A stretch of 64,000 nucleotides of DNA. Source: Xestospongia bergquistia (Eukaryota; Porifera; Demospongiae; Haplosclerida; Petrosiidae). Of this stretch, positions 24,201 to 64,000 are shown piece after piece; position 1 is the stretch's first letter, and each line of letters starts with the position of its first letter. Under the pieces are notes generated by a model. It saw only the letters and a list, made by a program, of their open reading frames with translations, was not told the origin of the DNA and searched no databases. The stretch lies in contig OZ014420.1 of NCBI GenBank assembly GCA_963965975.1, positions 2,878,001-2,942,000 on the forward strand. The letters run 5' to 3'. The position numbers and the translations under genes were made by a program.

Positions 24201-24500
24201 TCCTTTAGACTAAGCAGTTTACTTTATAAAATTCTCTCAATTGTCTAAACCTTCTAATGTCTTTAACATAAAGACTTTCGAGCATTAATGCAAACTAACT
24301 TACTAAACTGTTAATAGCTGTTTATTTAGTTAGTGCTAGAATTTCCTTTAGACTGAGCAGTTTACTTTATAAACTTATCTCAATAGTCTAAGTCTACTGA
24401 AGTCTTTCATTTAAAGACTTTAGAGCGTTAATGCAAAGTAACTTACTAAACTGTTAATAGCTGTTTATTTAGTTAGTGCCATAAAGTCCTTTAGACTGAG
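21290..24500. repeat. Block D, copy 2 (about 3.2 kb)
   Basis: A distal copy of 2430-5490 with the same order of variant monomers. It carries an 11-bp deletion at about 22150 (CTAATACAAATTACTG) and one extra monomer near 23830-23970 (TTTCTTTATTTAG, AAATTCC). At about 24500 it switches directly into block H, whereas copy 1 passes through another six monomers first, so the two blocks have been rejoined differently. Confidence 0.85.
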
Positions 24501-41539: not shown

Positions 41540-43790
41540 TTAAAGACTTTGGAGCGTTAACGCAAAGTAACTTCCTAAACTGTTAATATCTGTTTATTTA
41601 GTTAGTGCCATAAAGTCCTTTAAACTGAGCAGTTTACTTTATAAATCTCTCTCAATAGTCTAAACCTACTAAAGTCTTTAACTTAAAGACTTTAGAGCGT
41701 TAATGCAAACTAACATACTAAACTGTTAATACATGTTTATTTAGTTAGTGCCGAAAAGTCCTTTAGACTGAGCAGTTTACTTTATAAACTTCTTTCAATA
41801 GTATAAACCTACTAAAGTCTTTAACTTAAAGACTTTGGGCAGTAATGCAAACTAACTTACTAACCTGTTAATAGCTGTTTATTTAGTTAGTGCCATAAAG
41901 CCCTTTAGACTGAGCAGTTTACTTTATAAACTTCTCTCAATAGTCTAAACCTTCTAAAGTCTTTAACTTAAAGACTTTAGAGCATTAATGCAAACGAACT
42001 TACTAAACTCTTAATAGCTGTTTATTTAGTTAGTGCCATAAAGTCCTTTAGACTGAGCAGTTTACTTTATAATGTTCTCTCAATAGTCTAAACCTACTAC
42101 AGTCTTTAATTTAAAGAGTTTAGAACGTTAATGCAAACTAACTAACTAAACAGTTAATAGCTGTTTATTTAGTTAGTGCCATAAAGTCCTTTAGACTGAG
42201 CAGTTTACTTTATAAAATTCTCTAAATAGTCTAAACCTTCTAAAGTCTTTAAATTAAAGACTTTAGAGCGTTAATGCAAACAAACTTTCTAAAGTGTTAA
42301 TAGCTGTTTATTTAGTTAGTGCCATAGAGTCCTTTAGACTGAGCAGTTTACTTTATAAACTTCTTTAAATAGTCTAAACCATCTAAAGTCTTTAACTTAA
42401 AGAGTTTAGAGCGTTAATGCAAGCTATCTTACTAAACCGTTAATAGCTGCTTATTTAGTTAGTGCAATAAAGTCCTTTAGTCTGAGCAGTCTACTTTATA
42501 AACTTCTGTAAATAGTCTAAACCTACTAAAGTCTTTAACTTAAAGACTTTAGAGCATTAATGCGAACTAACTTACTAAACTGTTAATAGCTGTTTATTTA
42601 GTTAGTGCCATAAAGTCCTTTAGACTGAGCAGTTTACATTATAAAATTCTCTCAATAGTCTAAACCTTCTAAAGTCTTTAACTTAAAGACTTTAGAGCGT
42701 TAATGCAAACTAACTTACTAAACTGTTTATAGCTGTTTATTTAGTTAGTGCCATAAAGTCCTTTAGACTGAGCAGTTTACTTTATAAACATCTCTCAATA
42801 GTCTAAACCTTCTAAAGTCTTTCAGTTAAAGACTTTAAGGCATTAATGCAAACTAACTTACTAAAGTATTAACAGCTGTTTATTTAGTTACTGCCATAAA
42901 GTCGTTTAGACTGAGCAGTTAATTTTATACACTTCACTCAATAGTCTAATCCTACTACATTCATTAATTTAAAGACTTTAGAGCGTTAATACAAACTAAC
43001 TTACTAAACAGTTAATAGCTGTTTATTTAGTTAGTGCCATAAAGTCCTTTAGATTGAGCAGTTTACTTTATAAACTTCTCTCAATAGTCTAAACCTATTA
43101 AAGTCTTTAACTTAAAGAGTTTAGAGCGTTAATGCAAACTAACTTACTAAACTGTTAACAGCTGTTTATTTAGTTAGTGCCATAAAGTCCTTTAGACTGA
43201 GCACTTTACTTTATAAACTTCTCTCAATAGTCTAAAACTTTTCAAGTCTTTAACTTAAAGACTTTAGAACGTTAATGCAAACTAACTTACTAAACTGTTA
43301 ATAGCTGTTTATTTAGTTAGTGCCATAAAGTCCTTTAGACTGAGCAGTTTACTTTGTAAACTACACACAATAGTCTAAACCTTCTAAAGTCTTTAACTTA
43401 AAGACTTTAGAGCGTAAATGCAAACTAACTTACTAAACTGTTAATAGCAGTTTATATAGTTAGTGCCATAAAGTCCTTTAGACTGAGCAGTTTACTATAT
43501 GAACATCTCTAAACAGTCTAAACCTTCTAAAGTCTTTAACTTAAAGACTTTAGAGTGTTAATGCAAAGTAACTTACTGAACTGTTAAAAGCTGTTTATTT
43601 AGTTAGTGCCATAAAGTCCTTTAGACTGAGCAGTTTACTTTATAAAATTCTCTCAATAGTCTAAACATTCTAAAGTCTTTAACTTAAAGAGTTTGGAGTG
43701 TTAATGGAAATTAACTTACTAAAATGCTAATAGCTGTGTACATAGTTAGTGCCATAAAGTCCTTTAGACTGAGCAGTTTACTTTATAAAC
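41540..43790. repeat. Block F, copy 2
   Basis: Downstream copy of 38400-40640, with ACTTCCTAAACTG at about 41570, AAAGTATTAACAG at about 42862, CTAATCCTACTACATTC at about 42945, ACATCTCTAAACAG at 43502 and AAAATGCTAATAG at about 43720. The offset changes between about 2999 and 3146 bp along the block, so whole monomers were gained or lost after duplication. Confidence 0.75.
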
Positions 43791-44556
43791 TTCTCTCAAT
43801 AGTCTAAGCCTTCTAAAGTCTTTAACTTAAAGACTTTAGAGCGTTAATGCAAAGTAACTTACTAAACTGTTGATAGCTGTTTATTTAATTAGTGCCATAA
43901 AGTCCTTTAGACTGAGCAGTTTACTTTATAAACTTCTCTCAATAGTCTAAACCTTCTAAAGTCTTTAACTTAAAGACTTTAGAGCGTTAATGCAAACAAA
44001 CTTACTGAACTGTTAATAGCTGTTTATTTAGTTTGTGCCATAAAGTCCTTTAGACTGAGCAGTTTACTTTATAAACTTCTCTCAATATTCTAAATCTACT
44101 AAAGTTTTTAACGTAAAGACTTTAGAGCGTTAATGCAAACTAACTTACTAAACTGTTAATAGCTGTTTATTTAGTTAGCGCCATAAAATCATTTAGACTG
44201 AGCAGTTTACTTTATAAACTTCTCTCAATAGTCTAAACCTTCTAAAGTCTTTAACTTAAAGACTTTAGAGCGTTAATGCAAACTAACTTACGAAACTGTT
44301 AATAGCTGTTTATTTAGTTAGTGCCATAAAGTCCTTTAGACTGAGCAGTTTACTTTATAAACTTCTCTCAATAGTCTAAACTTTCTAAAGTCTTTAACTT
44401 AAAGACTTTAGAGCGTTAATGCAAACTAACTTACTAAACTGTTAATAGCTGTTTATTTAGATAGTGCCGTAAAATCCTTCAGACTGAGCAGTTTACTTTA
44501 TAAAATTCTCTCAATAGTCTAAATCTACTAAAGTCTTTAACTTAAAGACTTTAGAG

Positions 44557-47138
44557 TGTTAATGCAAACAAAGTTACTAAACTGTTAATAGAAGTTTATT
44601 TAGTTAGTCCCACAGAGTCCTTTAGACTGAGCTCTTTACTTTATAAACTTCAATCAATAGTCTAATCCTTCTAAAGTCTTTAATTTAAAGACTTTAGATT
44701 GTTAAAGCAAACAAACTTACTAAACTGTTAATAGAAGTTTATTTAGTTAGTCCCATAGAGTCCTTTAAAAAGTGCAGTTTACTTTATAAAATTTACTCGA
44801 TAGTCTAAACCTTCTAAAGTTTTTAAATTAAAGACTTTAGATTGTTAATGCAAACCTACTTACTGAACTGTTAATCACGGTTTATTTACTTAGTCCCATA
44901 GAGACCTTTAGACTGCGCTCTTTACTTTATAAACTTAACTCAATAGTGTAAACCTTCTGAACTCTTTAATTTAAAGACTTTAGAGTCTTAATGCAAACAA
45001 ACGTACTAAACTGTTATTAGCAGTTTATTGAATTAGTCCCATAGAGTCCTTTAGAATGAGCAGTTTACTTTATGAAATTTACTCAATAGTGTAAACCTTC
45101 AAAAGTCTAGAAATTAAAGACTTTAGAGTGTTAATGCAAACCAACTTACTAAACAGTTAATAGCATTTTATTCAGTTAGTCCCATAGAGTCCTTTAGACT
45201 GAGCGGTTAAAATTATAAACATTACTTAATAGTCTAAACCTCTAAACTCTTTAATTTAAAGACTTTAGAGTGTTAAAGGAAACGAACTTACTAAACTGTT
45301 AATAGCAGTTTATTTAGTTAGTCCCATAAGTCCTTTAGACTGACCAGTTTAATTTACTCAATAGTCTAAACCTTCTAAAGTCTTTAAATTAAAGACTTTA
45401 GAGTGTTAATGCAAACCAACTTACTAAACTGTTCTAGCAGTTTATTTAGTTAGTTTCATAGAGTCCTTTAGACTGAGCTGTTTACTTTATAAACTTCACT
45501 CAATAGTCTAAACTTTCTGAAGTCTTTAAATTAAAGACTTTAGAGTTTTAATGCAAATCAACTAACTAAAGTGTTAATAGTAGTTTAATTAGTTAGTCCC
45601 TTAGAGTCTTTTAGATTGAGCAGTTTACTTTATAAAATATACTCAATAGTCTAAAGATTCTAAAGTCTTTAAATTAAAGACTTTAAAGTGGTAATGCAAA
45701 CCAACTTACTAAACTATTAATAACAGTTTATTTCTTTAGTCTCATAGAGTCCTTTAGACTGCGCTCTTTACTTTATAAACATCACTCAATAGTCTAAACC
45801 TTCTGAACTCTTTAATTTAAAGACTTTAGAGTGTTAATGTAAATCATCTTACTAAACTGTTAATAGCAGTTTATTTAGTTAGTCCCATAAGTCCTTTAGA
45901 CTGAGCAGTTTACTTTATAAAATTTACTCAATAGTGTAAACTTCCTAAAGTTTTTAAATTAAAGACTTTAGAGTGTTAATGCAAACCAACTTACTAAACT
46001 GTTAATAACTGTTTATTTATTTAGTTTCATAGAGTCCTTTAGACTGACCAGTTCACTTTATAAAATTTATTCAATAGTTTAAATCTTCTAAAGTCTTTAA
46101 ATTAAAGACTTTAGAGCGTTAAAGCAAACGAACTTATTATACTGTTAATACCATTTTATTTAGTTAGTGCGAGAAAGTCCTTTAGACTGAGCAGTTTACT
46201 TTATAAAATTTACCCAATAGTCTAAACCTTCTAATGTTCTTATATCAAAGACTTTGGAGTGTTAATGCAAACCAACTTACCAAACTGTTAATAAGAATTT
46301 ATTTAGTTAGTCCCATAGAGTCCTTTAGACTGAGCTGTTTACTTTATAAACTTCACTCAACAGTCTAAACCTTCTGAACTCTTTAATTTAAAGACTTTAG
46401 AGTGTTAATGCGAACCAATTAACTAAACTGTTAATAGCAGTTTATTTTGTTAGTCCCATAGTGTCTTTTGGAATGAGCAGTTTACTTTATACAATTTACT
46501 CGATAGTCTAAACCTTCTAAAGTCTTTAAATTAGAGACTTTAGAGTGTTAATGCAAACCAACTTACTAAACTGTTAATCACAGTTTATTTAGTTAGTCCC
46601 ATAGAGTCCTTTAGACTGAGCTGTTACTTTATAAACTTCACTCAATAGTCTAAACCTAGTGTCTTTTGGAATGAGCAGTTTACTTTATACAATTTACTCG
46701 ATAGTCTAAACCTTCTAAAGTCTTTAAATTAGAGACTTTAGAGTGTTAATGCAAACCAAGTTACTAAACTGTTAAGAAAAGTTTATTTTGTTAGTCCCAT
46801 AGAGTCCTTTAGACTGAGCTGTTTACTTTATATATTTCCCTCACTAGTCTAAACCTTCTAAACTCTTTAATTTAAAGACTTTCGAGTGTTATTGCAAACC
46901 AACTTACTAAACTGTTAACAGCAGTTTATTTAGTTAGTCCCATAGAGTCCTTTAGACTGAGCAGTTTACTTTACTCAATAGTCTAAACCTTCTAAAGTCT
47001 TTAAATGAAAGACTTTAGAGTGTTAATGCAAACCAACTTACTAAACTGTTAATAGCAGTTTATTTAGTTATTTTCATACAGTTCTTCAGACTGAGCTGTT
47101 TACTTTATAATCTTCACTCAATAGTCTAAACCTTCTAA
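44557..47138. repeat. Satellite subfamily B, first segment; block G copy 1
   Basis: At 44557 the array switches from A to B within one monomer. B keeps the 143-bp period and register. Its diagnostic features are GCAAACCAAC, TAGCAGTTTAT, GTCCCATAGAG and AGAGTGTTAATGC. Two types alternate: B1 (GAGCTGTTTAC, AAACTTCACTCAATAG, CTGAACTCTTTAATTTAAAG) and B2 (AATGAGCAGTTTAC, AAAATTTACTCAATAG, CTAAAGTCTTTAAATTAAAG). The segment matches 53598-56594 in order (TTTAAAAAGTGCAG, CTTACTGAACTGTTAATCACGG, TTATTATACTG, TAAACCTAGTGTC), with the distal copy longer by three monomers. It ends at transposon E1. No gene is seen. Confidence 0.93.
47135..47138. repeat. Left target-site duplication of E1 (CTAA)
   Basis: CTAA directly precedes the CCCTTTT terminus and is matched by CTAA at 48068-48071. 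The paralogous empty site at 56591-56594 has a single CTAA in the same context (CCTTCTAAAGAC), which shows that the four bases were duplicated on insertion. Confidence 0.85.
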
Positions 47139-47150
47139 CCCTTTTCGCGC
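47139..47150 (+). repeat. E1 left terminal inverted repeat
   Basis: CCCTTTTCGCGC; pairs with the complement of the right end with one mismatch (T for C at position 7). It is followed by a 10-bp palindrome, GCGCATGCGC, at 47147-47156 that overlaps the repeat. Confidence 0.8.
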
Positions 47151-47277
47151 ATGCGCATAAAGCAAGTAACTACTGCCAACGCACGAGTATTTTCAGGGTT
47201 GGAGTGGTTGCGTTTAAGCTCTTGTATCATCTCTAAACTGTCTCCTAGAAGTTTAGCTGTTTCAAGTTTGCTTCAAT

Positions 47278-47332
47278 ATGGATACCTGGATATTTTGTTC
47301 TTCTAATGAATTGTGTATTCGTCGTCTACAAG
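47278..47332 (+). other. E1 possible remnant exon with consensus 5' splice site
   Basis: An ATG at 47278 opens 18 codons (starting MDTWIFCSSN) that run into ACAAG|GTAAGC, a consensus vertebrate/insect-type donor, at 47332/47333. A pyrimidine-rich acceptor, TTCTATTTCAG, ends at 47825, and an AATAAA lies at 47906-47911, so a two-exon unit can be drawn on paper; read through, it stops within about 20 codons. I do not recognise the peptide. This may be chance in a 929-bp element. Confidence 0.25.
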
Positions 47333-47781
47333 GTAAGCATTATGTTATAACTACGCACACATTGTAAATGACGTATAAAGCATCTTTCAAGAGTCCCCAT
47401 GTTTTTTTTATTTGAAATAGACTTAGATGATAGTAGGAATGAGTAGAATGTTTCTTATTTCTTCGTTGCAGTGTTTTTTTGCGTTGTAGTACTAGTTCTT
47501 TGAGTGGGCGTGGCCTTCTGTTTTTGGAATGTACTTATCTTGTGGTTGTAAAATAGAGCAATTAGGCATTTTTGAGGATAGTGAAATAGGTGATCACTAG
47601 CTACAGTGTAAGGTGAACAAAAAGCTTCAGCTTTATTATGTTGCTTTTGTCTGTAGCAAGACATGTGAAGCTTCTAGTAAGATGTATCATAATTACAAAC
47701 CACAATTTCAAGACAATAGTTATACAATGCAATACAACACAGTACAAACATTGACAAGTAAGTAATATTTATATAGTTTAT

Positions 47782-48042
47782 TTATGTACCTAAATGATAA
47801 TTACCATTCAATTGTTCTATTTCAGTCTCATCAACCGCAACAATATTATCAGCTACTACATCAATTTCATCATCTATATATATATAATTTTTTTGCTTTT
47901 ATTGAAATAAATTATAATCAAAAATGTCATGTTCTATGAAATACTGAAGTTTCTGGGTAAATCGATCAACGTACGAGATGTTATACACACGAAACGCATA
48001 AATGCGTCGTCGGCGCTGGTGAACAATCAGCCACCGACGCAT
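47782..48042 (-). pseudogene. E1 minus-strand broken reading frame, possible relic
   Basis: An ATG formed inside the subterminal palindrome (48042-48040) opens 47 codons to a TAA at 47901-47899. The same frame continues after it for 38 codons to a second TAA at 47784-47782. The second part is markedly acidic (DDEIDVVADN, then VDETEIEQLN). Acidic N-terminal regions are common in piggyBac transposases, and this strand starts from the palindromic end, so a decayed transposase start is conceivable. There is no recognisable catalytic or DNA-binding domain, and a chance frame is equally possible. Confidence 0.2.
47994..48007. repeat. E1 inner subterminal palindrome
   Basis: ACGCATAAATGCGT, 6-bp arms around AA. 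Its centre lies 67 bp from the right end of E1 and 43 bp from the centre of the outer palindrome. Read from the element end it is GACG-N8-CGTT, one base short of the full GACG-N8-CGTC form. Confidence 0.85.
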
Positions 48043-48057
48043 AAATGCGTCGGTGGC
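48030..48057. repeat. E1 outer subterminal palindrome
   Basis: Perfect 13-bp arms (GCCACCGACGCAT and its complement) around AA. It contains the same ACGCATAAATGCGT core as the inner copy, and its centre is 24 bp from the terminus. Paired subterminal repeats of this kind are typical transposase-binding candidates in piggyBac-like elements; binding itself is inferred. Confidence 0.9.
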
Positions 48058-48067
48058 GCGGAAAGGG
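48056..48067 (-). repeat. E1 right terminal inverted repeat
   Basis: GCGCGGAAAGGG, the complement of CCCTTTCCGCGC; 11 of 12 positions match the left end. The outer palindrome overlaps its inner two bases. Confidence 0.8.
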
Positions 48068-48071
48068 CTAA
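48068..48071. repeat. Right target-site duplication of E1 (CTAA)
   Basis: CTAA immediately follows GGG and leads into AGACTTTAAATA, the continuation of the interrupted satellite monomer. The same continuation follows the single CTAA of the empty paralogous site at 56591. Confidence 0.85.
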
Positions 48072-48089
48072 AGACTTTAAATAAAAGAC

Positions 48090-50650
48090 TTTAGAGTTTT
48101 AATGCCAACCAACTTACTAAACTGTTAATAGCAGTTTATTTAATTAGTGCCATAGAGTCCTTTAGATTGAGATGTTTACTTTATAAACTTCACTCAATAG
48201 TCTAAACATTCTGTACTCTTTAATTTAAAGACTTTAGAGTGTTAATGCCAACCAACTTACTAAGCTGTTAATAGCAGTTTATTTAGTTCGTTTCATAGAG
48301 TTCTTTAGACTAAGCTGTTTAGTTTTAAACTTCACTCAATAGTCTAAACCTTCTAAAGTCTATAAATAAAAGACTTTAGATTTTTAATGCAAACCAACTT
48401 ACTAAACTTTTAATAGCAGTTTATTTAGTTAGTCCCATAGAGTCCTTTGAAATGAGCTGTTTACTTTGTAGAATTTACTCAATAGTCTAAACCTTCTAAA
48501 GTCTTTAAATTGAAGACTTTATAGTGTTTATGCAAACCAACTTACTAAACTATTAATAAAAGTTTTTTTAGTTAGTCCAATAGAGTCCTTTAGACTGACC
48601 AGTTTACTTTATAAAAATTTACTCAATAGTCTAAACCTTCTAAAGTCTTTAAATTGGAGACTGAGATCTTTACTTTATAAATTTCACTCAATAGTCTAAA
48701 CCTTCTAAACTCTCAATTTAAAGACTTTTGAGTGTTAATGCAAACCTAGTCACTAAACTGTTAATAGCAGTTTATTTAGTTAGTCCCATAAGTTCTTTAG
48801 ACTGACGAGATTACTTTATAAAATTTACTCAAAGGTCTAAACCTTCTAAAGTCTTTAAATTAAAGACTTTAGAGTGTTTATCAAACCAACTTACTAAGCT
48901 GTTAAGAGCAGTTTATTTAGCTAGAGCTATAGAGTCCTTTACAATGAGCAGTTTTCTCTATAAACTTCACTCAATAGTCTAAACCTTCTAAACTCTTTAA
49001 TTTAAAGACTTTAGAGTTTGAATGCCAACCAACTTACTAAACTGTTAATAGCAGTTTATTTAATTAGTGCCATAGAGTCCTTTAGACTGAGATGTTTACT
49101 TTAAAAACTTCACTCAATTGTCTAAACATTCTCAACTCTTTAATTTAAAGACTTTAGAGTGTTAATGCCAACCAACTTACTAAGCTGTTAATAGCAGATT
49201 ATTTAGTACGTTTCATAGAGTTCTTTAGACTGAGCTGTTTACTTTATAATCTTCACTCAATAGTCTAAACCTTCTAAAGTCTATAAATTAAAGACTTTAG
49301 AGTTTTAATGCAAACCAACTTTGTAATCTGTTAATAGCAGTTTATTTAGTTAGCCCCATAGAGTCATTAAAAATGCGAAGTTTACTTTATAAAAATGACT
49401 GAAAAGTCTAAACCTTCTAAAGACTTTAAATTAAAGACTTTAGAGTGTTAATGCAAACCAACTTACTAAACTGTTAATAACAGTTTATTTAGTTAGTCTC
49501 ATAGAGTCCTTTAGACTTTGATGTTTACTTTATAAACTTCACTCAATAGTCTAATTCTTCTGAACTCTTTAATTTAATGACTTTAGAGTGTTAAAGCAAA
49601 CCAACTTACTAAACTGTTAATAGTAGTTTATTTAGTTAGTGACATAGACTCCTTTAGATTGAGCAGTTTACATTATAAAATTTACTCGATAGTCTAAACC
49701 TTCTAAAGCCTTTAAATTAAAGACTTTATAGTGTTAATGCAAACCAACTTACTAAACTGTTAATTAAATTTTATTTAGTTAGTCCCATTGAGTCCTTTAG
49801 AATGAGCTGTTTACTTTATAAAATTTACTCAAAAGTCTAAACCTTCTAAATTCTTCAAATTAAAGACCTTAGAGTGTTAATGCAAACCAACTTACTAAAC
49901 TGTTAATAAGAGTTTATTTAGTTAGTAACATAGAGTCCTTTATACTTTGATGTTTACTTTATAAACTTAACTCAATAATCTAAACCTTCTGAACTCTTTA
50001 ATTTAAAGACATTTGAGTGTTAAAGCAAACTAACTTACTAAACTGTTAATAGAAGTTTATTTAGTTAGTGCCATAGAGTCCTTTAGAATGAGAGTTTACT
50101 TTATAAAATTTACTCGATAGTCTAAACCTTCTAAAGTCTTTAAATTAAAGACTTTAGAGTGTTAATGCAAACAAACTTACTAAACTGTTAATAGCATTTT
50201 ATTTAGTTTGTTTCATAGAGTCCTTTAGACTGAGCTGTTTACTTTATAATCTTCCCTCATTTGTCTAAACCTTATAAAGTCTTTAAATTAAAGACTTGGG
50301 AGAGTTAATGCAAACAAACTTACTAAACTGTTAATATCAGTTTATTTACTTAGTCCCACAGAGTCCTTTAGAATGAGCAGTTTACTTTATAAAATTTACT
50401 CAATAGTCTAAACCTTCTAAAGTCTTTAAATTAAAGACTTTAGAGTGTTAATGCAAACAAAGTTACTAAACTGTTAATAGCAGTTTATTTAGTTAGTCCC
50501 ATAGAGTCCTTTAGAATGAGCAGTTTACTTTATAAAATTTACTCAATAGTCTAAACCTTCTAAAGTCTTTAAATTAAAGACTTTAGAGTGTTAATGCAAA
50601 CAAAGTTACTAAACTGTTAATAGCAGTTTATTTATTTAGTCCCACAGAGT
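48090..50650. repeat. Block K, copy 1 in B
   Basis: Ordered marks (TTTAATTAGTGCC, TTTAGTTCGTTTC, CAGTTTTCTCTATAAAC with CTAGAGCTATAG, AAAAATGACTGAAAAG, TTTAGACTTTGATG, GACTTGGGAGAG, TTTACTTAGTCCCACAG) recur in the same order at 51030-53750. The offset is 2936 bp at the first mark and 3154 bp at the second GCCAACC mark because this copy has lost part of two monomers near 48590-48665. Confidence 0.8.
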
Positions 50651-51029
50651 CTTTTAGAGTGAGCTCTTTACTTAATAAACTTCAATCAATAGTCTAAACC
50701 TTCTGAACTCTTTAATTTAAAGACTTTAGATTGTTAAAGCCAACAAACTTACTAAACTGTTAATAGCAGTTATTTAGTTAGTCCAATAAGTTCTTTAGAA
50801 TGAGCAGTTTACTTTATAAAGTTTACTCAAAAGTCTAAACCTTCTAAAGTCTTTAAATTAAAGACTTTAGTGTGTTAATCAAACCAACTTACTAAAGCAA
50901 ACAAACTTACTAAACTGTTAATAGCAGTTTATTTAGCTAGTCCCATAGAGTCCTTTACAATGAGCAGTGTACTTTATAAACTTCACTCAATAGTCTAAAC
51001 CTTCTAAACTCTTTAATTTAAAGACTTTA

Positions 51030-53750
51030 GAGTTTGAATGCCAACCAACTTACTAAACTGTTAATAGCAGTTTATTTAATTAGTGCCATAGAGTCCTTTA
51101 GACTGAGATGTTTACTTATAAACTTCACTCAATAGTCTAAACATTCTGTACTCTTTAATTTAAAGACTTTAGAGTGTTAATGCCAACCAACTTACTAAGC
51201 TGTTAATAGCAGTTTATTTAGTTCGTTTCATAGAGTTCTTTAGACTAAGCTGTTTAGTTTTAATCTTCACTCAATAGTCTAAACCTTCTAAAGTCTATAA
51301 ATAAAAGACTTTAGATTTTTAATGCAAACCAACTTACTAAACTTTTAAAAGCAGTTTATTTAGTTAGTCCCGTAGAGTCCTTTGGAATGAGCTGTTTACT
51401 TTGTAGAATTTACTCAATAGTCTAAACCTTCTAAAGTCTTTAAATTGAAGACTTTATAGTGTTTATGCAAACCAACTTACTAAACTATTAATAAAAGTTT
51501 TTCTAGTTAGTCCAATAGAGTCCTTTAGACTTAGCTCTTTAGTTTATAAACTTCACTCAATAATTTAAATGATCTAATCTCTTTAATTTAATGACTTTTG
51601 AGTGTTAATGCAAACCAACTTATAAAACTGTTAATAGCAGTTTATTTAGTTAGTCCCATATCTCCTTTAGACTGACCAGTTTACTTTATAAAAATTTACT
51701 CAATAGTCTAAACCTTCTAAAGTCTTTAAATTAAAGACTTTAGAGTGTTAATGCAAACCAACTTACTAAACTGTTAATAACAGTTTATTAAGTTAGTCCC
51801 ATAGAGTCCTTTAGACTGAGCTCTTTACTTTATAAATTTCACTCAATAGTCTAAACCTTCTAAACTCTCAATTTAAAGACTTTTGAGTTTTAATGCAAAC
51901 CAAGTTACTAAACTGTTAATAGCAGTTTATTTAGTTAGTCCGATAAGTTCTTTAGACTGACCAGATTAGTTTATAAAATTTACTCAAAGGTCTAAACCTT
52001 CTAAAGTCTTTAAATTAAAGACTTTAGAGTGTTTATCAAACCAACTTACTAAGCTGTTAATAGCAGTTTATTTAGCTAGTGCTATAGAGTCCTTTACATG
52101 AGCAGTTTTCTTTATAAACTTCACTCAATAGTCTAAACTTTCTAAACTCTTTAATTTAAAGACTTTAGAGTTTGAATGCCAACCAACTTACTAAACTGTT
52201 AATAGCAGTTTATTTAATTAGTGCCATAGAGTCCTTTAGACTGAGATGTTTACTTTAGAAACTTCACTCAATTGTCTAAACATTCTCAACTCTTTAATTT
52301 AAAGACTTTAAAGTGTTAATGCCAACCAACTTACTAAACTGTTAATAGCAGTTTATTTAGTACGTTTCATAGAGTTCTTTAGACTGAGCTGTTTAGTTTT
52401 AATCTTCACTCAATAGTCTATACCTTCTAAAGTCTATAAATAAAAGACTTTAGAGTTTTAATGCGAACCAACTTTGTAATCTGTTAATAGCAGTTTATTT
52501 AGTTAGCCCCATAGAGTCCTTTAGAATGAGCAGTTTACTTTATAAAAATGACTCAAAAGTCTAAACCTTCTAAAGACTTTAAATTAAAGACTTTAGAGTG
52601 TTAATGCAAACCAACTTACTAAACTGTTAATAACAGTATATTTAGTTAGTCTCATAGAGTCCTTTAGACTTTGATGTTTACTTTACAAACTTCACTCAAT
52701 AGTCTAATTCTTCTGAACTCTTTAATTTAATGACTTTAGAGTTTGAATGCAAATAACTTAATAAACTGTTAATAGTAGTTTATTTAGTTAGTGACATAGA
52801 CTCCTTTAGAATGAGCAGTTTACATTATAAAATTTACTCGATAGTCTAAACCTTCTAAAGCCTTTAAATTAAAGACTTTATAGTGTTAATGCAAACAAAC
52901 TTATTAAACTGTTAATAAAATTTTATTTAGTGAGTCCCATTGAGTCCTTTAGAATGAGCAGTTTACTTTATAAAATTTACTCAATAGTCTAAACCTTCTA
53001 AATTCTTCAATTTAAAGACTTTAGAGTGTTAATGCAAACCAACTTACTAAACTGTTAATAAGAGTTTATTTAGTTAGTAACATAGAGTCCTTTATACTTT
53101 GATGTTTAATTTATAAACTTAACTCAATAGTATAAACCTTCTGAACTCTTTAATTTAAAGACATTTGAGTGTTAAAGCAAACTAACTTGCTAAACTGTTA
53201 ATAGAAGTTTATTTAGTTAGTGCTATAGAGTCCTTTAGAATAAGAGTTTACTTTATAAAATTTACTCGATAGTCTAAACCTTCTAAAGTCTTTAAATTAA
53301 AGACTTTAGAGTGTTAATGCAAACCAACTTACTAAACTGTTAATAGCATTTTATTTAGTTTGTTTCATAGAGTCCTTTAGACTGAGCTGTTTACTTTATA
53401 ATCTTCCCTCATTTGTCTAAACCTTATAAAGTCTTTAAATTAAAGACTTGGGAGAGTTAATGCAAACAAACTTACTAAACTGTTAATATGAGTTTATTTA
53501 CTTAGTCCCACAGAGTCCTTTAGAATGAGCAGTTTACTTTATAAAATTTACTCAATAGTCTAAACCTTCTAAAGTCTTTAAATTAAAGACTTTAGAGTGT
53601 TAATGCAAACAAAGTTACTAAACTGTTAATAGCAGTTTATTTAATTAGTCCCACAGAGTCCTTTAGAGTGAGCTCTTTACTTAATAAACTTCAATCAATA
53701 GTCTAAACCTTCTGAACTCTTTAATTTAAAGACTTTAGATTGTTAAAGCA
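51030..53750. repeat. Block K, copy 2 in B
   Basis: Distal copy of 48090-50650. It retains the monomers at 51530-51830 that copy 1 lost, so the deletion is on the copy 1 side. GACTTGGGAGAG recurs at about 53446 and TTTACTTAGTCCCACAG at about 53496. Confidence 0.8.
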
Positions 53751-56594
53751 AACAAACTTACTAAACTGTTAATAGAAGTTTATTTAGTTAGTCCCGTAGA
53801 GTCCTTTAAAAAGTGCAGTTTACTTTATAAAATTTACTCGATAGTCTAAACCTTCTAAAGTTTTTAAATTAAAGACTTTAGATTGTTAATGCAAACCAAC
53901 TTACTAAACTGTTAATAGCTGTTTATTTAGTTAGTCCCATAGAGTCCTTTAGAATGAGCAGTTTACTTTATAAAATTTACTGAATTGTCTAAACCTTCTA
54001 AAGTCTTTAAATTAAAGACTTTAGAGTGTTAATGCAAACCTACTTACTGAACTGTTAATCACGGTTTATTTACTTAGTCCCATAGAGACCTTTAGACTGC
54101 GCTCTTTACTTTATAAACTTAACTCAATAGTGTAAACCTTCTGAACTCTTTAATTTAAAGACTTTAGAGTCTTAATGCAAACAAACGTACTAAACTGTTA
54201 TTAGCAGTTTATTGAATTAGTCCCATAGAGTCCTTTAAATGAGCAGTTTACTTTATGAAATTTACTCAATAGTGTAAACCTTCAAAAGTCTAGAAAGTGT
54301 TAATGCAAACCAACTTACTTAGCAGTTAATAGCATTTTATTCAGTTAGTCCTATAGAGTCCTTTAGACTGAGCAGTTTACATTATAAACATTACTTAATA
54401 GTCTAAGCCTTCTAAACTCTTTAATTTAAAGACTTTAGCGTGTTAATGGAAACCAACTTACTAAACTGGTAATAGCAGTTTATTTAGTTAGTCCCATAAG
54501 TCCTTTAGACTGACCAGCTTAATTTACTCAATAGTCTAATCCTTCTAAAGTCTTTCAATTAAAGACTTTAGAGTGTAAATGCAAACCAACTTACTAAACT
54601 GTTCTAGCAGTTTATTTAGTTAGTTTCATAGAGTCCTTTAGACAGAGCTGTTTACTTAATAAACTTTACTCAATAGTCTAAACTTTCTGAAGTCTTCAAA
54701 TTAAAGACTTTAGAGTTTTAATGCAAATCAACTAACTAAACTGTTAAGAGTAGTTTAATTAGTTAGTCCCTTAGAGTCCTTTAGAATGAGCAGTTTACTT
54801 TATAAAGTATACTCAATAGTCTAAACATTCTAAAGTCTTTAAATTAAAGACTTTAAAGTGGTAATGCAAACCAACTTACTAAACTATTAATAACAGTTTA
54901 TTTAGTTAGTCCCATAGAGTCTTTTAGACTGCGCTCTTTACTTTATAAACATCACTCAATAGTCTAAACCTTCTGAACTCTTTAATTTAAAGACTTTAGA
55001 GTGTTAATGCAAACAAACTTACTAAACTGTTAATAGCAGTTTATTTAGTTAGTCCCATAGAGTCCTTTAGAATGAGCAGTTTACTTTCTAAAATTTACTC
55101 GATAGTCTAAACCTTCTAAAGTCTTTAAATTAGAGACTTTAGAGTGTTAATGCAAACCAACTTACTAAACTGTTAATAACAGTTTATTTAGTTAGTCCCA
55201 TAGAGTCCTTTAGACTGAGCTGTTTACTTTATAAAATTCACTCAATAGTCTAAACCTTCTGAACTCTTTAATTTAAAGACTTTAGAGTGTTAATGCAAAC
55301 CATCTTACTAAACTGTTAATAGCAGTTTGTTTAGTTAGTCCCATAAGTCCTTTAGACTGAGCAGTTTACTTTATAAAATTTACTCAATAGTCTAAACTTC
55401 CTAAAGTCTTTAAATTAAAGACTTTAGAGTGTTAATGCAAACCAACTTACTAAACTGTTAATAACAGTTTATTTATTTAGTTTCATAGAGTCTTTTAGAC
55501 TGACCAGTTCACTTTATAAAATTTATTCAATAGTTTAAATCTTCTAAAGTCTTTAAATTAAAGACTTTAAAGCGTTGAAGCAAACGAACTTATTATACTC
55601 TTAATACCATTTTATTTAGTTAGTGCGATAAAGTCCTTTAGACTGAGCAGTTTACTTTATAAAATTTACCCAATAGCCTAAACCTTCTAATGTTCTTTAA
55701 TCAAAGACTTTAGAGTGTTAATGCAAACCAACTTACCAAACTGTTAATAAGAATTTATTTTGTTAGTCCCATAGAGTCCTTTAGACTGAGCTGTTTACTT
55801 TATAAACTTCACTCAATAGTCTAAACCTTCTGAACTCTTTAATTTAAAGACTTTAGAGAGTTAATGCGAACCAATTAACTAAACTGTTAATAGCAGTTTA
55901 TTTGGTTAGTCCCATAGTGTCTTTTGGAATGAGCAGTTTACTTTATACAATTTACTCGATAGTCTAAACCTTCTAAAGTCTTTAAATTAGAGACTTTAGA
56001 GTGTTAATGCAAACCAACTTACTAAACTGTTAATCACAGTTTATTTAGTTAGTCCCATAGAGTCATTTAGACTGAGCTGTTACTTTATAAACTTCACTCA
56101 ATAGTCTAAACCTAGTGTCTTTTGGAATGAGCAGTTTACTTTATACAATTTACTCGATAGTCTAAACCTTCTAAAGTCTTTAAATTAGAGACTTTAGAGT
56201 GTTAATGCAAACCAAGTTACTAAAAAGTTAAGAAAAGTTTATTTTGTTAGTCCCATAGAGTCCTTTAGACTGAGCTGTTTACTTTATATACTTCCCTCAC
56301 TAGTCTAAACCTTCTAAACTCTTTAATTTAAAGACTTTCGAGTGTTATTGCAAACCAACTTACTAAACTGTTAACAGCAGTTTATTTAGTTAGTCCCATA
56401 GAGTCCTTTAGACTGAGCAGTTTAATTTACTCAATAGTCTAAACCTTCTAAAGTCTTTAAATTAAAGACTTTAGAGTGTTAATGCAAACCAACTTACTAA
56501 ACTGTTAATAGCAGTTTATTTAGTTATTTTCATAGAGTTCTTCAGACTGAGCTGTTTACTTTATAATCTTCACTCAATAGTCTAAACCTTCTAA
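53598..56594. repeat. Block G, copy 2 in B (contains the empty E1 site)
   Basis: Repeats 44557-47138 in order. The offset is 9041 bp at the start, 9184 bp after one extra monomer at about 53900-54040, and 9456 bp at the end after an extra B2+B1 dimer at about 55005-55290. Its end (TTTTCATAGAGTTCTTCAG to CCTTCTAAAGAC) is the sequence interrupted by E1 in copy 1. Confidence 0.85.
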
Positions 56595-57504
56595 AGACTT
56601 TAAATAAAAGACTTTAGAGTTTTAATGCAAAACAACTTAGTAATCTGTTAATAGCAGTTTATTTATTTAGTCCCATAGAGTCCTTTAGAATGAGCAGTTT
56701 ACTTTATAAAATTTACTCGATAGTCTAAGCCTTCGAAAGTCTTTAAATTAGAGACTTTAGAGTGTTATTGCAAACAAACTTACTAAACTGTTAAAAACAG
56801 TTTTTTTAGTTAGACTCATACAGTTCTTTAGACTGAGCTGTTTACTTTATAATCTTCACTCAATAGTCTAAACCTTCTAAAGTCTTTAAATAAAAACTTT
56901 ATAGTTTTAATGCATACCAAGTTACTAAACTGTTAATAGCAGTTTATTTAGTTAGTCCCGTAGAGTCCTTTAAAATGAGCAGTTAATTTTATACAATTTA
57001 CTCAATAGTCTAAACGTTCTAATGTATTCAATTTAAAGATTTTAGAGTGTTAATGCAAAAAAACTTACTAAACTGTTAATAACAGATTATTTAGTTAGTC
57101 CCATAGAGTCCTTTAGACTGAGCTGTTTAATTTATAAAATTCACTCAATAGTCTAAACCTTCTAAACCTTTTAATTTAAAGACTTTAGAGTGTTAATGCA
57201 AACAAACTTACTAAACTGTTAATAGCAGTTTATTTAGTTAGTCCCATAGAGTCCTTTGGAGTGAGCAGTTTACTTTGTAGAATTTACTCAATAGTCTAAA
57301 CCTTCTAAAGTCTTTAAATTGGAGACTTTATAGTGTTTACGCAAACCAACTTACTAATCTGTTAATAAAAGTTTATTTGGTAAGTCCAATAGAGTCCTTT
57401 AGACTTAGCTCTTTCGTTTATAAACTTCACTCAATAATTTAAACGATCTAAACTTTTTAATTTAATGACTTTAGAGTGTTAATGCAAACCAAGTTACTAA
57501 ACTG

Positions 57505-57508
57505 TTAA
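57505..57508. repeat. Left target-site duplication of E2 (TTAA)
   Basis: ACTGTTAA precedes the CCCTTTAC terminus and the satellite resumes with TTAATAGCAG after the element, so TTAA is duplicated inside the usual monomer string CTGTTAATAGCAG. Confidence 0.92.
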
Positions 57509-57521
57509 CCCTTTACTTCCC
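57509..57521 (+). repeat. E2 left terminal inverted repeat
   Basis: CCCTTTACTTCCC; pairs with the complement of the right end (CCCTTTACATGCC) at 11 of 13 positions. Confidence 0.88.
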
Positions 57522-57524
57522 GTT

Positions 57525-57540
57525 GACGAGTATACTCGTC
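57525..57540. repeat. E2 outer subterminal palindrome
   Basis: GACGAGTATACTCGTC, perfectly self-complementary over 16 bp and over 18 bp with the flanking T and A. Its centre is 24 bp from the left terminus, the same distance as the outer palindrome of E1 from its right terminus. Confidence 0.93.
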
Positions 57541-57567
57541 ATTAAAAAAGTGGGCGTAATTCCCAAT

Positions 57568-57583
57568 GACGAGTATACTCGTC
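57568..57583. repeat. E2 inner subterminal palindrome
   Basis: A second identical GACGAGTATACTCGTC, starting 43 bp after the first, with its centre 67 bp from the terminus. Both distances equal those in E1. Confidence 0.93.
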
Positions 57584-57725
57584 GTCTGTTTTATACCGAG
57601 TTTGGCGCTCTGGTTTGCTTTGTGGAAGCGTCTTTTTTAGCTAGTCGTGCTTCAGGTAGCTGGGTTGCAAGGTAGAAAGACCAAAGAAGCTGCTGTGTCT
57701 CTTCGTTCTTGCTTTCAGACCATCT

Positions 57726-57783
57726 ATGCTTGAAAACTCATCTTTGTATCATTATGATTGCCACGCTCGTCACTCGATCAAAG
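57726..57783 (+). other. E2 possible remnant exon with consensus 5' splice site
   Basis: An ATG at 57726 is followed by 19 codons without a stop (starting MLENSSLYHY) that run into TCAAAG|GTAAGT, a strong donor match. TTGTCACTATTGTAG at about 57912-57926 could be an acceptor. The peptide is not recognised. It reads away from the palindromic end, whereas the comparable signal in E1 reads towards it, which weakens the case for a shared gene. Confidence 0.22.
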
Positions 57784-58148
57784 GTAAGTGTGAAGCTACA
57801 AAGTAAACATGCAACTATTCATTATGATCATTTAACAACAATCATTAAAATATAAAACAATAGTATATAGTGCACTGTTTATAATACGTGGAGCTGAGAG
57901 AGTTCATCGTTGTCACTATTGTAGCCGATACTATATTCAACAATAATCATTTATAAAAGGTAAAACATTAAAAGTACAGTTTAAGAACAACTCACCATCT
58001 TATCATTCACTTTATGAAAGAAACTCGACTTCTAAACACTTCCATCATCAAGATAGAAAGAATATAACGCAAAACGAAGTAAAAAACATGCTTATTACAT
58101 CAGGGCAAAATAATTTGGTAATTACGGTATACGCCCACGCAGAAACTT

Positions 58149-58161
58149 GGCATGTAAAGGG
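58149..58161 (-). repeat. E2 right terminal inverted repeat
   Basis: GGCATGTAAAGGG, directly followed by TTAA. Unlike the left end, the adjoining 70 bp contain no GACG-N8-CGTC palindrome, so the element is asymmetric, as piggyBac ends usually are. Confidence 0.88.
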
Positions 58162-61100
58162 TTAATAGCAGTTATTTAGTTAGTCCAATAAGTTCTTTAG
58201 ACTGACCAGTTTACTTTATAAAGTTTATTCAAAAGTCTAAACCTTCTAAAGTCTTTAAATTAAAGACTTTAGTCTGTTAATCAAACCAACTTACTAAGCT
58301 CTTAATAGCAGTTTATTTAGCTAGTCCCATAGAGTCCTTTACAATGAGCAGTGTACTTTATAAACATCACTCCATAGTCTAAACCTTCTAAACTCTTTAA
58401 TTTAAAGACTTTAGAGTTTGAATGCCAACCAACTTACTAAACTGTTAATAGCAGTTTATTTAATTAGTGCCATAGAGTCCTTTAGACTGAGATGTTTACT
58501 TTATAAACTTCACTAAATAGTCTAAACATTCTGTACTCTTTAATTTAAAGACTTTAGAGTGTTAACGCCAACCAACTTACTAAGCTGTTAATAGCAGTTT
58601 ATTTAGTTCGTTTCATAGAGTTCTTTAGACTAAGCTGTTTAGTTTTAATCTTCACTCAATAGTCTAAACCTTCTAATGTCTATAAATAAAAGACTTTAGA
58701 TTTTTAATGCAAACCAACTTTCTAAACTTTCAATAGCAGTTTATTTAGTTAGCCCCATAGAGTCCTTTAGAATGAGCAGTTTACTTTATAAAAATGACTC
58801 AAAAGTCTAAACCTTCTAAAGACTTTAAATTAAAGACTTTAGAGTGTTAATGCAAACCAACTTACTAAACTGTTAATAACAGTTTATTTAGTTAGTCTCA
58901 TAGAGTCCTTTAGACTTTGATGTTTACTTTATAAACATCACTCAATAGTCTAATTCTTCTGAACTCTTTAATTTAATGACTTTAGAGTGTTAAAGCAAAC
59001 CAACTTACTAAACTGTTAATAATAGTTTATTTAGTTAGTGACATAGACTCCTTTAGAATGAGCAGTTTACATTATAAAATTTACTCGATAGTCTAAACCT
59101 TCTAAAGCCTTTAAATTAAGGATTTTATAGTGTTAATGCAAACCAACTTACTAAACTGTTAATAAAATTTTATTTAGTTAGTCCCATTGAGTCCTTTAGA
59201 ACTAGCAGTTTACTTTATAAAATTTACTCAATAGTCTAAACCTTCTAAATTCTTCAAATTAAAGACCTTAGAGTGTTAATGCAAACCAACTTACTAAACT
59301 GTTAATAACAGTTTATTTAGTTAGTAACATAGAGTCCTTTAGACTTTGATGTTTACTTTATAAACTTAACTCAATAGTCTAAACCTACTGAACTCTTTAA
59401 TTTAAAGACATTTGAGTGTTAAAGCAAACTAACTTACTAAACTGTTAATAGTAGTTTATTTAGTTAGTGCCATAGAGTCCTTTAGAATGAGAGTTTACTT
59501 TATAAAATTTACTCGATAGTCTAAACATTCTAAAGTCTTTAAATTAAAGACTTTAGAGTGTTAATGCAAACCAACTTACTAAACTGTTAATAACACCTTA
59601 TTTAGTTAGTCCGATAGAGTCCTTTAGAAAGAGCAGTTTATTTTATAAAATTAACTCGATAGTCTAAACCTTCTAAATTCTTCAAATTGAAGACTTTAGA
59701 TTGTTAATGCAAACCAACTTACTAAACAGTTAATAACAGATTATTTAGTTAGTCCCATAGAGTCCTTTAGACTGAGTTGTTTACTTTATAAACTTCAATC
59801 AATAGTCTAAACCTTCTAAACTCTTTAATTTAAAGACTTTAGATTGTTAATGCAAACCAACTTACTAAACTGTTTATAGCAGTTTATTTAGTTAGTCGCA
59901 TAGAGTCCTTTAGAATGAGCAGTTTACTTTATAGATATTACTCAATAGTCTAAACCTTCTAATGTCTTTAAATTAAAGACTTTAGAGTGTTAATGCAAAC
60001 CAACTTACTAAACTGTTAATAACAATTTATTTAGTTAGTCCAATAGAGTCCTTTGACTTAGCTCTTTAATTTATAAACTTTACTCAATAATCTAAACCAT
60101 CTAAACTCTTTAATTTAATGACTTTAGAGTTTTAATGCAAAACAACTTATAAAACTGTTAATAGCAGTTTATTTAGTTAGTACCATAAGTCCTTTAGACT
60201 GACCAGTTTACTATATAAAATTTACTCAATAGTCTAAACCTTCGAAAGTCTTTAAAATTAAAGACTTTAGAGTGTTAATGCAAACCAACTTACTAAACTG
60301 TTAATAACAGTTTATTAAGTCAGTCCCATAGAGTCCTTTAGACTGAGCTCTTTACTTTATAAACTTCACTCAATAGTCTAAACCTTATAAACTCTTCAAT
60401 TTAAAGACTTTAGAGTGTTAATGCAAACCAACTTACTAAACTGTTAATAGCAGTTTATATATTTAGTCCCATAAGTTCTTTAGACTGACCACTTTAATTT
60501 ATAAAATTTACTCAAAAGTCTAAACCATCTAAAGTCTTTAAATTAAAGATTTTAGTGTGTTAATGCAAACCAACTTACTAAACTGTTAATAGCAGTTTAT
60601 TTAGCTAGTCCCATAGAGTCCTTTAGAACCAGCAGTTTCTTTTATAAACTTAACTCAATAGTCTAAACCTTCTAAACTCTTTAATTTGAAGACTTTAGAG
60701 TGTTAATGCAAACCAACTTACTAAACTGTTAATAGAAGTTTATTTAGTCAGTGGAATATGTCCTTTAGACTGACCAGTTTACAGTACTCAATAGTCTAAA
60801 CTTTCTAAAGTCTTTAAATTAAGGACTTTAGAGTTTTAATGCAAATCATCTTACTAAATGGTTAATAGCAGTTTATTTAGCTAGTTTCATAGAGTCCGTC
60901 AGACTGAGCTGTTTACTTTATAAACTTCACTAAATAGTCTAAAAATTATAAACACTTCAATTTAAAGACTTTAGAGCTTGAATGCAAACCAACTTATTAA
61001 ACTGTTAATGACAGTTTATTTAGTTAGTCCCGTAGAGTCCTTTAGAATGAGCAGTTTACTTTATAAAATTTACCGAATAGTCTAAACTTTCTAAAGTCTT

Positions 61101-64000
61101 TAATATAAAGACTTTACAAAGTTAATGCAAACCATCTTACTAAACTGTCCATAACAGTTTAGTTAGTCCCATAGAGTCCTTTATACTGAGCTGTTTACTT
61201 TATGAACTTCAGTCAATAGTCTAAACATTCTGAACTCTTTAATTTAAAGACTTTAGACTGTTAATGCAAACGAACTTACTAAACTGTTAATAGTACTTTA
61301 TTTATTTAGTGCCATAGAGACCTTTAGAATGTACAGTTTACTTTATAAAATTTACTCAATAGTCTAAACCTTCTAAAGTCTTTAAATTAAAGACTGTAGA
61401 GTGTTAATTCAAACGAACTTACTAAACAGTTAATAGCAGTTTAATTATTTAGTCCCACAGAGTCCTTTAGAATGAGCAGTTTACTTTATAAAAATCACTT
61501 AATAGTCTAAACCTTCTAAACTCTATAATTTAAAGTCTTTAGAGTGTTAATGGAAACCAACTTACTAAACTCTTAAAAGCAGTTTATTTAGTTACTCCCA
61601 TAAGTCCTTTAGACTGACCAGTTTATTTTACTCAATAGTCTAATCCTTTTAAAGTCTTTAAATTAAAGACTTTAGAGTGTTAATGCAAACCAACTTACTA
61701 AACTGTTAATAGGAGTTTATTTAGTTAGTTTCATAGAGTCCTTCAGACTGAGCTGTTTACTCTATAAACTTCAATCAATAGTCTAAACCTTCTAAAGTCT
61801 TTAAATTAAAGACTTTAGAGTTTTAATGCAAACCAACTTACTAAACTGTTAATAGTAATTTATTTAGTTAGTCCCATAGAGTCCTTTAGAATGAGCTGTT
61901 TACTTTATAAAATTTACTCATTAGTCCAAACCTTCTAAAGTCTTTCAATTAAAGACTTTAGAGTGTTAACGCAAAGCAACGTACTAAACTGTTAATAACA
62001 GTTTATTTAGTTAGTCCCATAGAGTGCTTTAGACTGCGTTCTTTACTTTATAAATTTCACTCAATAGTCTAAACTTCTGAACTCTTTAATTTAAAGCCTT
62101 TAGAGTGTTAATGCAAACCATCTTACTAAACTGCTAATAGCAGTTTATTTAGCTAGTCCCATAGAGTCCTTTAGAATGAGCATTGAACTTTATAAAATTT
62201 ACTCCATAGTCTAAACCTTCTAAAGTTTTTAAATTAGAGACTTTATAGTGTTAATGCAAATCAAGTTACTAAACTGTTAAGAACAGTTTAATTAGTTAGT
62301 CCCATAGAGTCCTTTAGACTGAGCTGTTTACTTTATAAAATTCACTCATTAGTCTAAACCTTCTGAACTTTTTAATTCATGGACTTTAGAGTGTTAATGC
62401 AAACCAACTTACTAAACTGTTAATAGCAGTTTATTTAGTTAGTCCCATAAGTCCTTTAGACTGAGCAGTTTACTTTATAAAATTTACTCAATAGTCTAAA
62501 CCTTCTAAAGTCTTTAAATTAAAGACTTTAGAGTGTTAACGGAAACCAACTTACTAAACTGTTAATAGCAGTTTATTTAGTCAGTTTCATAGAGTCCTTT
62601 TCATTGAGCTTTTTACTTTATAAACTTCACTCAATAGTCTAAACCTTCTAAAGTCTTTATAATAAAGACTTTAGAGATTTAATGCAAACCAACTTACGAA
62701 ACTGTTTATAGCAGTTTTTTTCGTTAGTCCCATAGAGTCCTTTAGACTGAGCTCTTTACTTTATAAAATTTACTCAATAGTCTAAAGCTTCTAAAGTCTT
62801 TCAATTAAAGACTTTAAAGTGTTAATGCAAACCAACTTACTAAACTGTTAATAGCAGTTTATTTAGTTAGTCCCATTGAGTCCTTTAGACCTGTCAATTT
62901 ACTTTATAAACTTAACTCAATAGTCTAAACCTTCTAAAGTCTTTAAATTAAAGTCTTTAGAGTGTTAATGCAAACAAACTTACTGAACTGTTAATAGCAT
63001 TTTATTTAGTTTGTCCCATAAAGTCCTCTAGAATGAGCAGTTTACTTTATAAAATTTACTTAATAGTCTAAACCTTCTAAACTCTTTAAATGAAAGACTT
63101 CAGATTGTTAATGCAAACCAACTTACTAAGCTGTCAGTAGCAGTGAATTTAGTTAGTTTGATAGAGTCCTTCAGACTGAGCTGTTTATTTTATAAACTTC
63201 ACTCAATAGTCTAAACATTCTAAACTCTTTTATTTAAAGATTTTAGACGGTTAATTCAAACCAACTTACTAAACTGTTAATAGCAGTTTATTTAGTTAGT
63301 CCCATAGAGTCCTTTAGAATGAGCAGTTTACTTTATAAAATTTACTCGATAGTCTAAACCTTCTAATGTCTTTAAATTAAAGATTTTACGGTATTAATGC
63401 AAACCAACTTACTAAACTGTTAATAACAGTTTATTTAGATAGTCCCATAGAGTCCTTTATACTGAGCTGTTTACTTTATAAACTTCACTCAATAGTCTAA
63501 ACCTTCTAAAGTCTTTATAATAAAGACTTTAGAGTTTTAATCCAAACCAACTTACAAAACTGTTTATAGCAGTTTTTTTCGTTAGTCCCATAGAGTCCTT
63601 TAGACTGAGATCTTTACTTTATAAAATTTACTCAACAGTCTAAACCTTCTAAAGTCTTTAAATTAAAGACTTTAGAGTGTTAATGCTAGCCAACTTACTA
63701 AACTGTTAATAGCAGTTTATTTAGTTAGTCCCATTGAGTCCTTTAGACCTATCAGTTTACTTTATAAACTTAACTCAATAGTCTAAACCTTCTAAAGTCT
63801 TTAAATTAAAGTCTTTAGAGTGTTAACGCAAACCAACTTTCTGAACTGTTAATAGCATTTTATTTAGTTAGTCCCATAAAGTCCTCTAGAATGAGCATTT
63901 TACTTTATAAAATTTACTTAATAGTCTAAACCTTCTAAACTCTTTAAATTAAAGACTTTAGATTGTTAATGCAAACCAACTTACTAAACTGTCAATAGCA
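58162..64000. repeat. Satellite subfamily B, last segment
   Basis: About 41 B monomers in the same register, running off the window edge. From 58162 to about 58740 they follow the order at 50760-51340 (TTTAGTTAGTCCAATAAG, TCTGTACTC, TTTAGTTCGTTTC). After about 58749 they follow 49352 and 52503 (GTTAGCCCCATAG, AAAAATGACTCAAAAG), so the block is a mosaic. B1/B2 alternation is clear from about 59750. A near-identical pair of monomers (TTTTTTTCGTTAG, CCCATTGAGTCC, GTCCTCTAGAATG) recurs at about 62700-63060 and 63560-63920. No gene, RNA or further transposon is seen. Confidence 0.93.

Follow-up and report, generated by a model that had tools for sequence, protein, structure and literature searches.

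Paired palindromic sites at the left ends of piggyBac-like elements in the sponge Xestospongia bergquistia follow a piggyBat-like layout

Introduction

The 64,000 nucleotide stretch analysed here, which we call the window, comes from the sponge Xestospongia bergquistia (GenBank assembly GCA_963965975.1, contig OZ014420.1, positions 2,878,001 to 2,942,000, forward strand). It is a satellite array interrupted by two piggyBac-like elements, E1 and E2, whose left ends each carry two palindromes, with different sequences at the same distances. How can two elements keep the geometry of an end while its bases change? We conclude that E1 and E2 are very probably non-autonomous elements of the piggyBac superfamily, with two tandem predicted sites for transposase dimers at the left end, arranged as in piggyBat from Myotis lucifugus. 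The most likely reason for the shared layout is common membership in the piggyBat branch of the piggyBac transposons, and the layout has probably been retained by deep descent.

A first-pass annotation of the window had noticed these palindromes. It proposed a transposase, or its dimer, that measures two sites four helical turns apart while the half-sites co-evolve with the protein, and it knew of no described piggyBac family with such a rule. The mechanism appears to be largely right, and it was already known: The left end of piggyBat has the same plan. What is new is its breadth, one geometry with many half-sites in a single host.

Palindrome pairs at the left ends of E1 and E2

E1 is 929 bp (base pairs) long and lies on the minus strand (47139..48067, left end at 48067), E2 is 653 bp long and lies on the plus strand (57509..58161, left end at 57509). 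In full-length relatives, the left end is the one that precedes the transposase gene. Both left ends start with CCCTTT and contain 16 bp palindromes at bp 17–32 and 60–75 from the tip. The first-pass annotation had placed their centres at 24 and 67 bp, 43 bp apart: The spacing is correct, the centres lie at 24.5 and 67.5 bp in both elements. The outer palindromes (P1) are located at 48036..48051 in E1 (minus strand) and 57525..57540 in E2 (plus strand), the inner ones (P2) at 47993..48008 and 57568..57583 on the same respective strands. Each is a predicted site for a dimer of the transposase cysteine-rich domain (CRD). These four are all the matches to GACG-N8-CGTC found in the window with at most one mismatch, the inner E1 palindrome ending in CGTT, as annotated. 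In a shuffled window 0.73 matches are expected and none of 100 shuffles reaches four; a chance origin of the palindromes is ruled out by the shuffle tests.

The stretch ahead of each palindrome is also repeated, so each site consists of a motif and a palindrome. In E1, on the minus strand, the core-type motif GCGCCACC (48052..48059, bp 9–16) precedes P1 and its repeat GCGCCGAC (48009..48016, bp 52–59) precedes P2. In E2, on the plus strand, the corresponding motifs are TTCCCGTT (57517..57524) and TTCCCAAT (57560..57567). The pair is present at one end only, as had been claimed: We looked for it at the opposite ends and did not find it, either at the right end of E1, which starts at 47139 with CCCTTTTCGCGCATGCGC... 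(47139..47178, plus strand), or at that of E2, which starts at 58161 and reads inwards CCCTTTACATGCCAAG... (58122..58161, minus strand).

The outer palindrome of E1 can be extended to 28 bp (48030–48057), with 13 pairs matching and the central one mismatched. This means that the core motif is partly repeated, inverted, on the inner side of P1. The extension was not seen by eye in the sister family F5, described below.

Full-length relatives and insertion sites

We searched the host genome (146 Mb, 21 contigs) for relatives. E1 is an internal-deletion derivative of a family which we call F1, represented by a full-length element of 2842 bp in locus L024: One end matches it over 676 bp (97.8% identity), the opposite end over 170 bp (93.5%). 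Loci L020, L025 and L027 of F1 have intact frames. E2 belongs to a second family, F2. It matches locus L016 over 377 bp (84% identity) and over 234 bp (83%), and the full-length relatives L015–L018 have open frames of 506, 515, 515 and 515 amino acids. The DDE_Tnp_1_7 transposase domain (PF13843) is matched at positions 1–349 in L020 and L009, 31–347 in L015 and 44–347 in L039.

The piggyBac superfamily is recognized by a TTAA duplication and CC[CT]T tips. E2 is flanked by TTAA (57505–57508 and 58162–58165), a flank also found at many relatives. A correction is needed for E1, which has not TTAA but CTAA, a non-canonical piggyBac target, on both sides (47135–47138 and 48068–48071), together with CCCTTT tips. 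The array surrounding the elements has a 143 bp unit and fills positions 1..63999 (no strand assigned), broken only by E1 and E2; Tandem Repeats Finder reports periods of 143, 286 and 429 with 84–88% matches. When the flanks of either element are joined over one copy of the duplication, the window contains the resulting string at one other place; E1 and E2 thus sit in ordinary satellite units. A scan of the window with Rfam gave 0 matches.

Geometry is conserved among transposase families

A search of the genome for PF13843 gave 122 matches. The 39 distinct places examined, covered by 51 loci of which 12 are longer versions of others, correspond to ten transposase families (F1–F9 and F12), and a left end with a palindrome pair has been found in every one of them. 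Paired left ends are present at 34 of the 39 places: 30 have a TTAA-like flank, including L014 and L058, in which a 1 bp deletion has spoiled P1, and the others are L021, L022 and L032, with pairs at 43 bp, and L012, whose pair is decayed, with a first centre at 25.5 (judged by eye in L070). The second copy of L055 was left out of the scoring. The transposase search yielded families F3, F5, F6, F7, F8 and F9. F4, F10 and F11 had their ends located by the GACG pattern and F12 by a scan of shifts of 42–45, which makes them less independent. F10 is known from its end only, with a pair at 44 bp. F11 (L061) was considered as a further paired example and dropped, since its second site is absent. Another candidate, L066, is probably a chance match, with CTAA instead of TTAA and no second site by eye.

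The mean palindrome score of eleven left ends has its peak at 24.5 bp, with 6.91 of 8 possible pairs; the next centre reaches 3.0. None of 2000 shuffle sets attains this peak, the largest value being 3.73. The half-sites themselves vary among families: GACGNN, TACGCC, GTCACG, GGCTCC, GTTGCA and TGCGCA are found, and ACG is part of the half-site in 7 of the 11 ends. A family defined by GACG must therefore be rejected, this half-site is only one among several which use the geometry. When the four families whose half-site lacks ACG (F6, F7, F8 and F12) are scored alone, the peak is again at 24.5, with a score of 7.25. The claim that symmetry and distance are kept while the bases change thus holds across families whose transposases are 27–65% identical. 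Between families, identity is 0.91 at bp 1–6, 0.35 at bp 7–16, 0.51 at bp 17–32 and 0.30 in the linker (bp 33–58).

The second site appears as a direct repeat of bp 7–33. The shift is 43 bp in F1, F2, F4, F6, F9 and F12, 44 bp in F3, F7, F8 and the F10 end, and 35 bp, about 3.3 helical turns, in F5; shuffle p values are 0.001–0.035 for all paired left-end rows except F12. The part ahead of the palindrome (bp 7–16) is repeated before the second palindrome at 4–9 of 10 positions in F1–F9: The count is 7 in E1 and E2, reaches 9 in F8 and falls to 4 in F3 and F6. A third site was sought in eleven left ends and is clear only in F6 (20 of 27 positions; at most 14 in the others). It occupies bp 94–120 in L031, whose tip is at 894, so that the centres lie at 24.5, 67.5 and 111.5, with spacings of 43 and then 44 bp.

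Right ends behave differently. Eight of them, one for each of eight of the ten families, score 2.25 at 24.5, with a best value of 3.25 at 26.5. A test for direct repeats in ten right-end rows from eight families (F4 and F8 excluded) gave p ≥ 0.2 in nine rows. At the right end of F7 (L041, 2086), a shift of 48 bp gives a direct repeat, with 18 of 27 positions matching (p 0.002).

Spacing was also compared within families. The pattern CCCTTT-N5..20-GACG-N8-CGTC has 73 genome matches (one site counted twice) vs 3 for the reversed control pattern. Exact searches for the palindromes, which detect undamaged pairs only, gave 56 sites for E1: When paired by hand, they form 25 pairs, every one at 43 bp, and 6 singles. 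L067, an E1 copy counted as a single, has a mutated inner palindrome 27 bp away, through a deletion between the palindromes. For E2 there are 75 sites; among the 50 matches listed, 21 of 22 pairs are at 43 bp and one at 42, and 6 sites have no partner (by hand). The F5 palindromes have 19 sites and four pairs, all four at 35 bp.

F5 keeps nearly the same half-site as E1 at another spacing (its transposase is 65% identical to that of the E1 family): A shift in spacing need not alter specificity. In F6, F7, F8 and F12 the half-sites are different and the spacing is retained, which means that specificity can change while the spacing stays.

Relationship to piggyBat and other known systems

The plan described above is that of piggyBat. 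Its left end has motifs at bp 11–16, 55–60 and 99–104; after each comes an imperfect palindrome, and the right end has none (PMC11707139). Cryo-EM shows these palindromes bound by the zinc domains of transposase dimers (PMC11707139, PMC13405395). The transpososome consists of two dimers that form a tetramer without touching each other, and the inner one serves synapsis; at two points, near bp 25 and bp 69, the left-end DNA turns by about 90 degrees (PMC13405395). The third left-end site restricts transposition (PMC11707139). The sponge elements share with piggyBat the restriction of palindromes to the left end, their positions near bp 25 and 69 with about 44 bp between them, and the short core motif ahead of each. 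They differ in their half-sites, in the many palindromes which are perfect or nearly so instead of imperfect, and in the number of sites, three in piggyBat; here only F6, among eleven left ends, has a third one and resembles piggyBat in this respect. The 35 bp spacing of F5 is another difference.

The transposases point in the same direction. For both families the top PDB match is piggyBat 9c0f (1e-54 for the E1 family, 4.6e-37 for the E2 family), and the E1-family protein has a second match to it within the CRD. Identity to the aligned part of piggyBat is 34% for the E1 family and 28% for the E2 family, 27–35% for the sponge transposases as a whole; identity to piggyBac of Trichoplusia ni is 25% and 26%, respectively, within a range of 23–30%. 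The CRD pattern H...CxxC...CxxC...[CH]...CF..[YF]H is whole in nine of the ten families, F12 having Pro in place of the upstream His, and this arrangement of cysteines and histidines is the one described for PiggyMac and piggyBat (PMC8086355). It suggests that the clade of E2 has the same CRD fold. In a loose alignment, all ten families have an apparent insert at the position of the piggyBat differential binding loop, where the T. ni protein is shorter.

The piggyBac element of T. ni has a left-end palindrome at bp 17–33, centred near 25 and bound by a CRD dimer (PMC7351741). It differs in its CRD fold (PMC11707139), in its 19 bp repeat, present on both ends at unequal distances (PMC7351741, PMC12324416), and in its lower transposase identity. 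The left tip of AmiPB5 from Acropora millepora, CCCTTAGAGACC, is identical to the first 12 bp of F6, in a comparison based on the 14 bp of the left end printed in PMC2872659. The available excerpts on Mage (PMC10954464) and Pokey (PMC3849761) describe no such end layout, nor did a term search of a survey of piggyBac elements in small genomes (PMC10813416) find one. No statement of a general left-end rule was found in the excerpts of the literature searched, a search which left the Bouallegue 2017 survey of end organisation outside.

By analogy with the piggyBat structures, each core motif and its palindrome would recruit one transposase dimer. The outer dimer would cut and join at the tip, while the inner one, 43–44 bp further in, would help to tether the left and right ends in a tetramer. 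A fixed protein assembly and strong DNA bends could keep the geometry, and the sequence of the half-site may drift together with the CRD, in which case families living in the same genome would grow separate in specificity.

Several observations weigh against this reading. The CRD of E2 matches that of piggyBat weakly (3.7 bits), and zf-Tnp_2 matches E1 and not E2, F3 or F4. No paired end was recognised at five of the 39 places (L013, L035, L036, L037 and L052). In L013, an F4 place with a frame without stops, TTAA-CCCTTT is found 30 bp ahead of the start of the L059 homology (745–775, equivalent to 3245–3275 in L039) and has no palindromes: Loss of both sites from a left end is one possible reading, chance occurrence the other. 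In the count of 30 flanked places, the candidate end was picked by its palindrome score. F11 has a P1 and no second site (p 0.208), the inner palindrome of F7 is poor (4 of 8 pairs), and the F5 shift departs from the 43 or 44 bp of the other nine families.

According to a paper of 2021, the data at hand reveal no straightforward link between the CRD fold and the way the ends are organised (PMC8086355). Ten families with one CRD pattern and the same left-end plan suggest that the two may be correlated after all; piggyBat now looks less of a special case. These families are a natural series of half-site specificities at a nearly fixed geometry, in which CRD recognition and the orthogonality of families can be tested, and F5 marks how far the spacing can shift.

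Alternative explanations

The piggyBat-like reading proposed above has to be compared with three others. A strict DNA ruler, in which the protein needs two sites on the same face of the helix, four turns apart, agrees with the spacing of 43 or 44 bp (4.1–4.2 turns at 10.5 bp) in nine of the ten families. We consider it unlikely: F5 keeps its sites 35 bp (3.3 turns) apart in all four exact pairs and in four copies (L034, L055, L057 and L058), and piggyBat combines bends at both sites with dimers that do not touch (PMC13405395). Variable distances, which the first-pass annotation had named beforehand as evidence against its proposal, are thus found in this family, all others being at 43–44 bp. 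One dimer for each palindrome agrees with the piggyBat cryo-EM structures, the fixed four-turn measure is not supported as proposed.

It is very improbable that E1 and E2 descend from one family as diverged copies, with ends that are alike through recent descent of homologous DNA, a result which the first-pass annotation had also named as evidence against its proposal. All families do have a superfamily ancestor in common, and ACG recurs in the half-sites of 7 of the 11 left ends. However, the full-length relatives of E1 and E2 give no blastn match to each other and their transposases are only 30% identical. In the transposase tree they fall in two clades (F1, F5, F6, F7 and F12; F2, F3, F4, F8 and F9), with support values of 82/86 and 100/100. 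Between-family identity in the linker is only 0.30, and the centre is kept in families with unrelated half-sites.

Finally, we find it hard to believe that the palindromes act as hairpins or cruciforms, or as sites for a host factor, instead of binding the transposase. Palindromes of 16 bp (28 bp in E1 P1, with its mismatched central pair) could extrude, and a preprint of 2025 considers hairpins at repeats of this type (PMC12324416). However, half-sites differ between transposase families, where a host factor would be expected to require one sequence; the distance from the cut tip to the centre is fixed, and direct binding by the CRD is the structural precedent (PMC11707139, PMC7351741).

A possible recognition code

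Co-evolution of half-site and transposase, as proposed in the first-pass annotation, is suggested at two CRD residues, without reaching statistical significance. In piggyBat, R543 and E545 contact C19, G-19 and C-20 (PMC11707139). Assuming an offset of 6 between the PDB chain and the numbering of the paper, their positions are three and one residues ahead of an invariant Thr. Arg at the first position goes with C19 in 11 of 11 cases (F1–F7, F9, F11, F12 and piggyBat); F8, the only family without Arg, has Leu and T19. Asp or Glu at the second goes with G20 in 8 of 8 (F1, F2, F3, F4, F5, F9, F11 and piggyBat), and other residues in 2 of 4 (Leu and A20 in F6, Gln and T20 in F7, Trp and G20 in F8, Gln and G20 in F12). 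The code was devised on F1–F9 and piggyBat. As for the later cases, F11 agrees (Arg-x-Asp with C19 and G20) and F12 disagrees at bp 20, where Gln goes with G20. Exact tests by hand gave about 0.08 (1/12) and 0.09 (6/66), uncorrected for kinship, which is not significant. The link between the two residues and bp 19–20 is a suggestive lead.

A wider proposal is possible, if on balance somewhat doubtful: Transposons with a piggyBat-type CRD might in general conserve the left-end geometry (24.5, then 43 or 44 bp further) while the half-site evolves, two CRD residues reading bp 19–20. If so, a small recognition code would keep families of the same genome separate while the scaffold stays unchanged.

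Other observations

Two places (G000:C4:4412545-4413972 and 4563768-4565195) have open frames of 749 amino acids, in which the PF13843 match is split in two. The CRD sequences of F8 are found as near-identical copies about 65–175 kb apart on each of the contigs C5, C6 and C15 of G000, as if large tandem duplications carried the copies.

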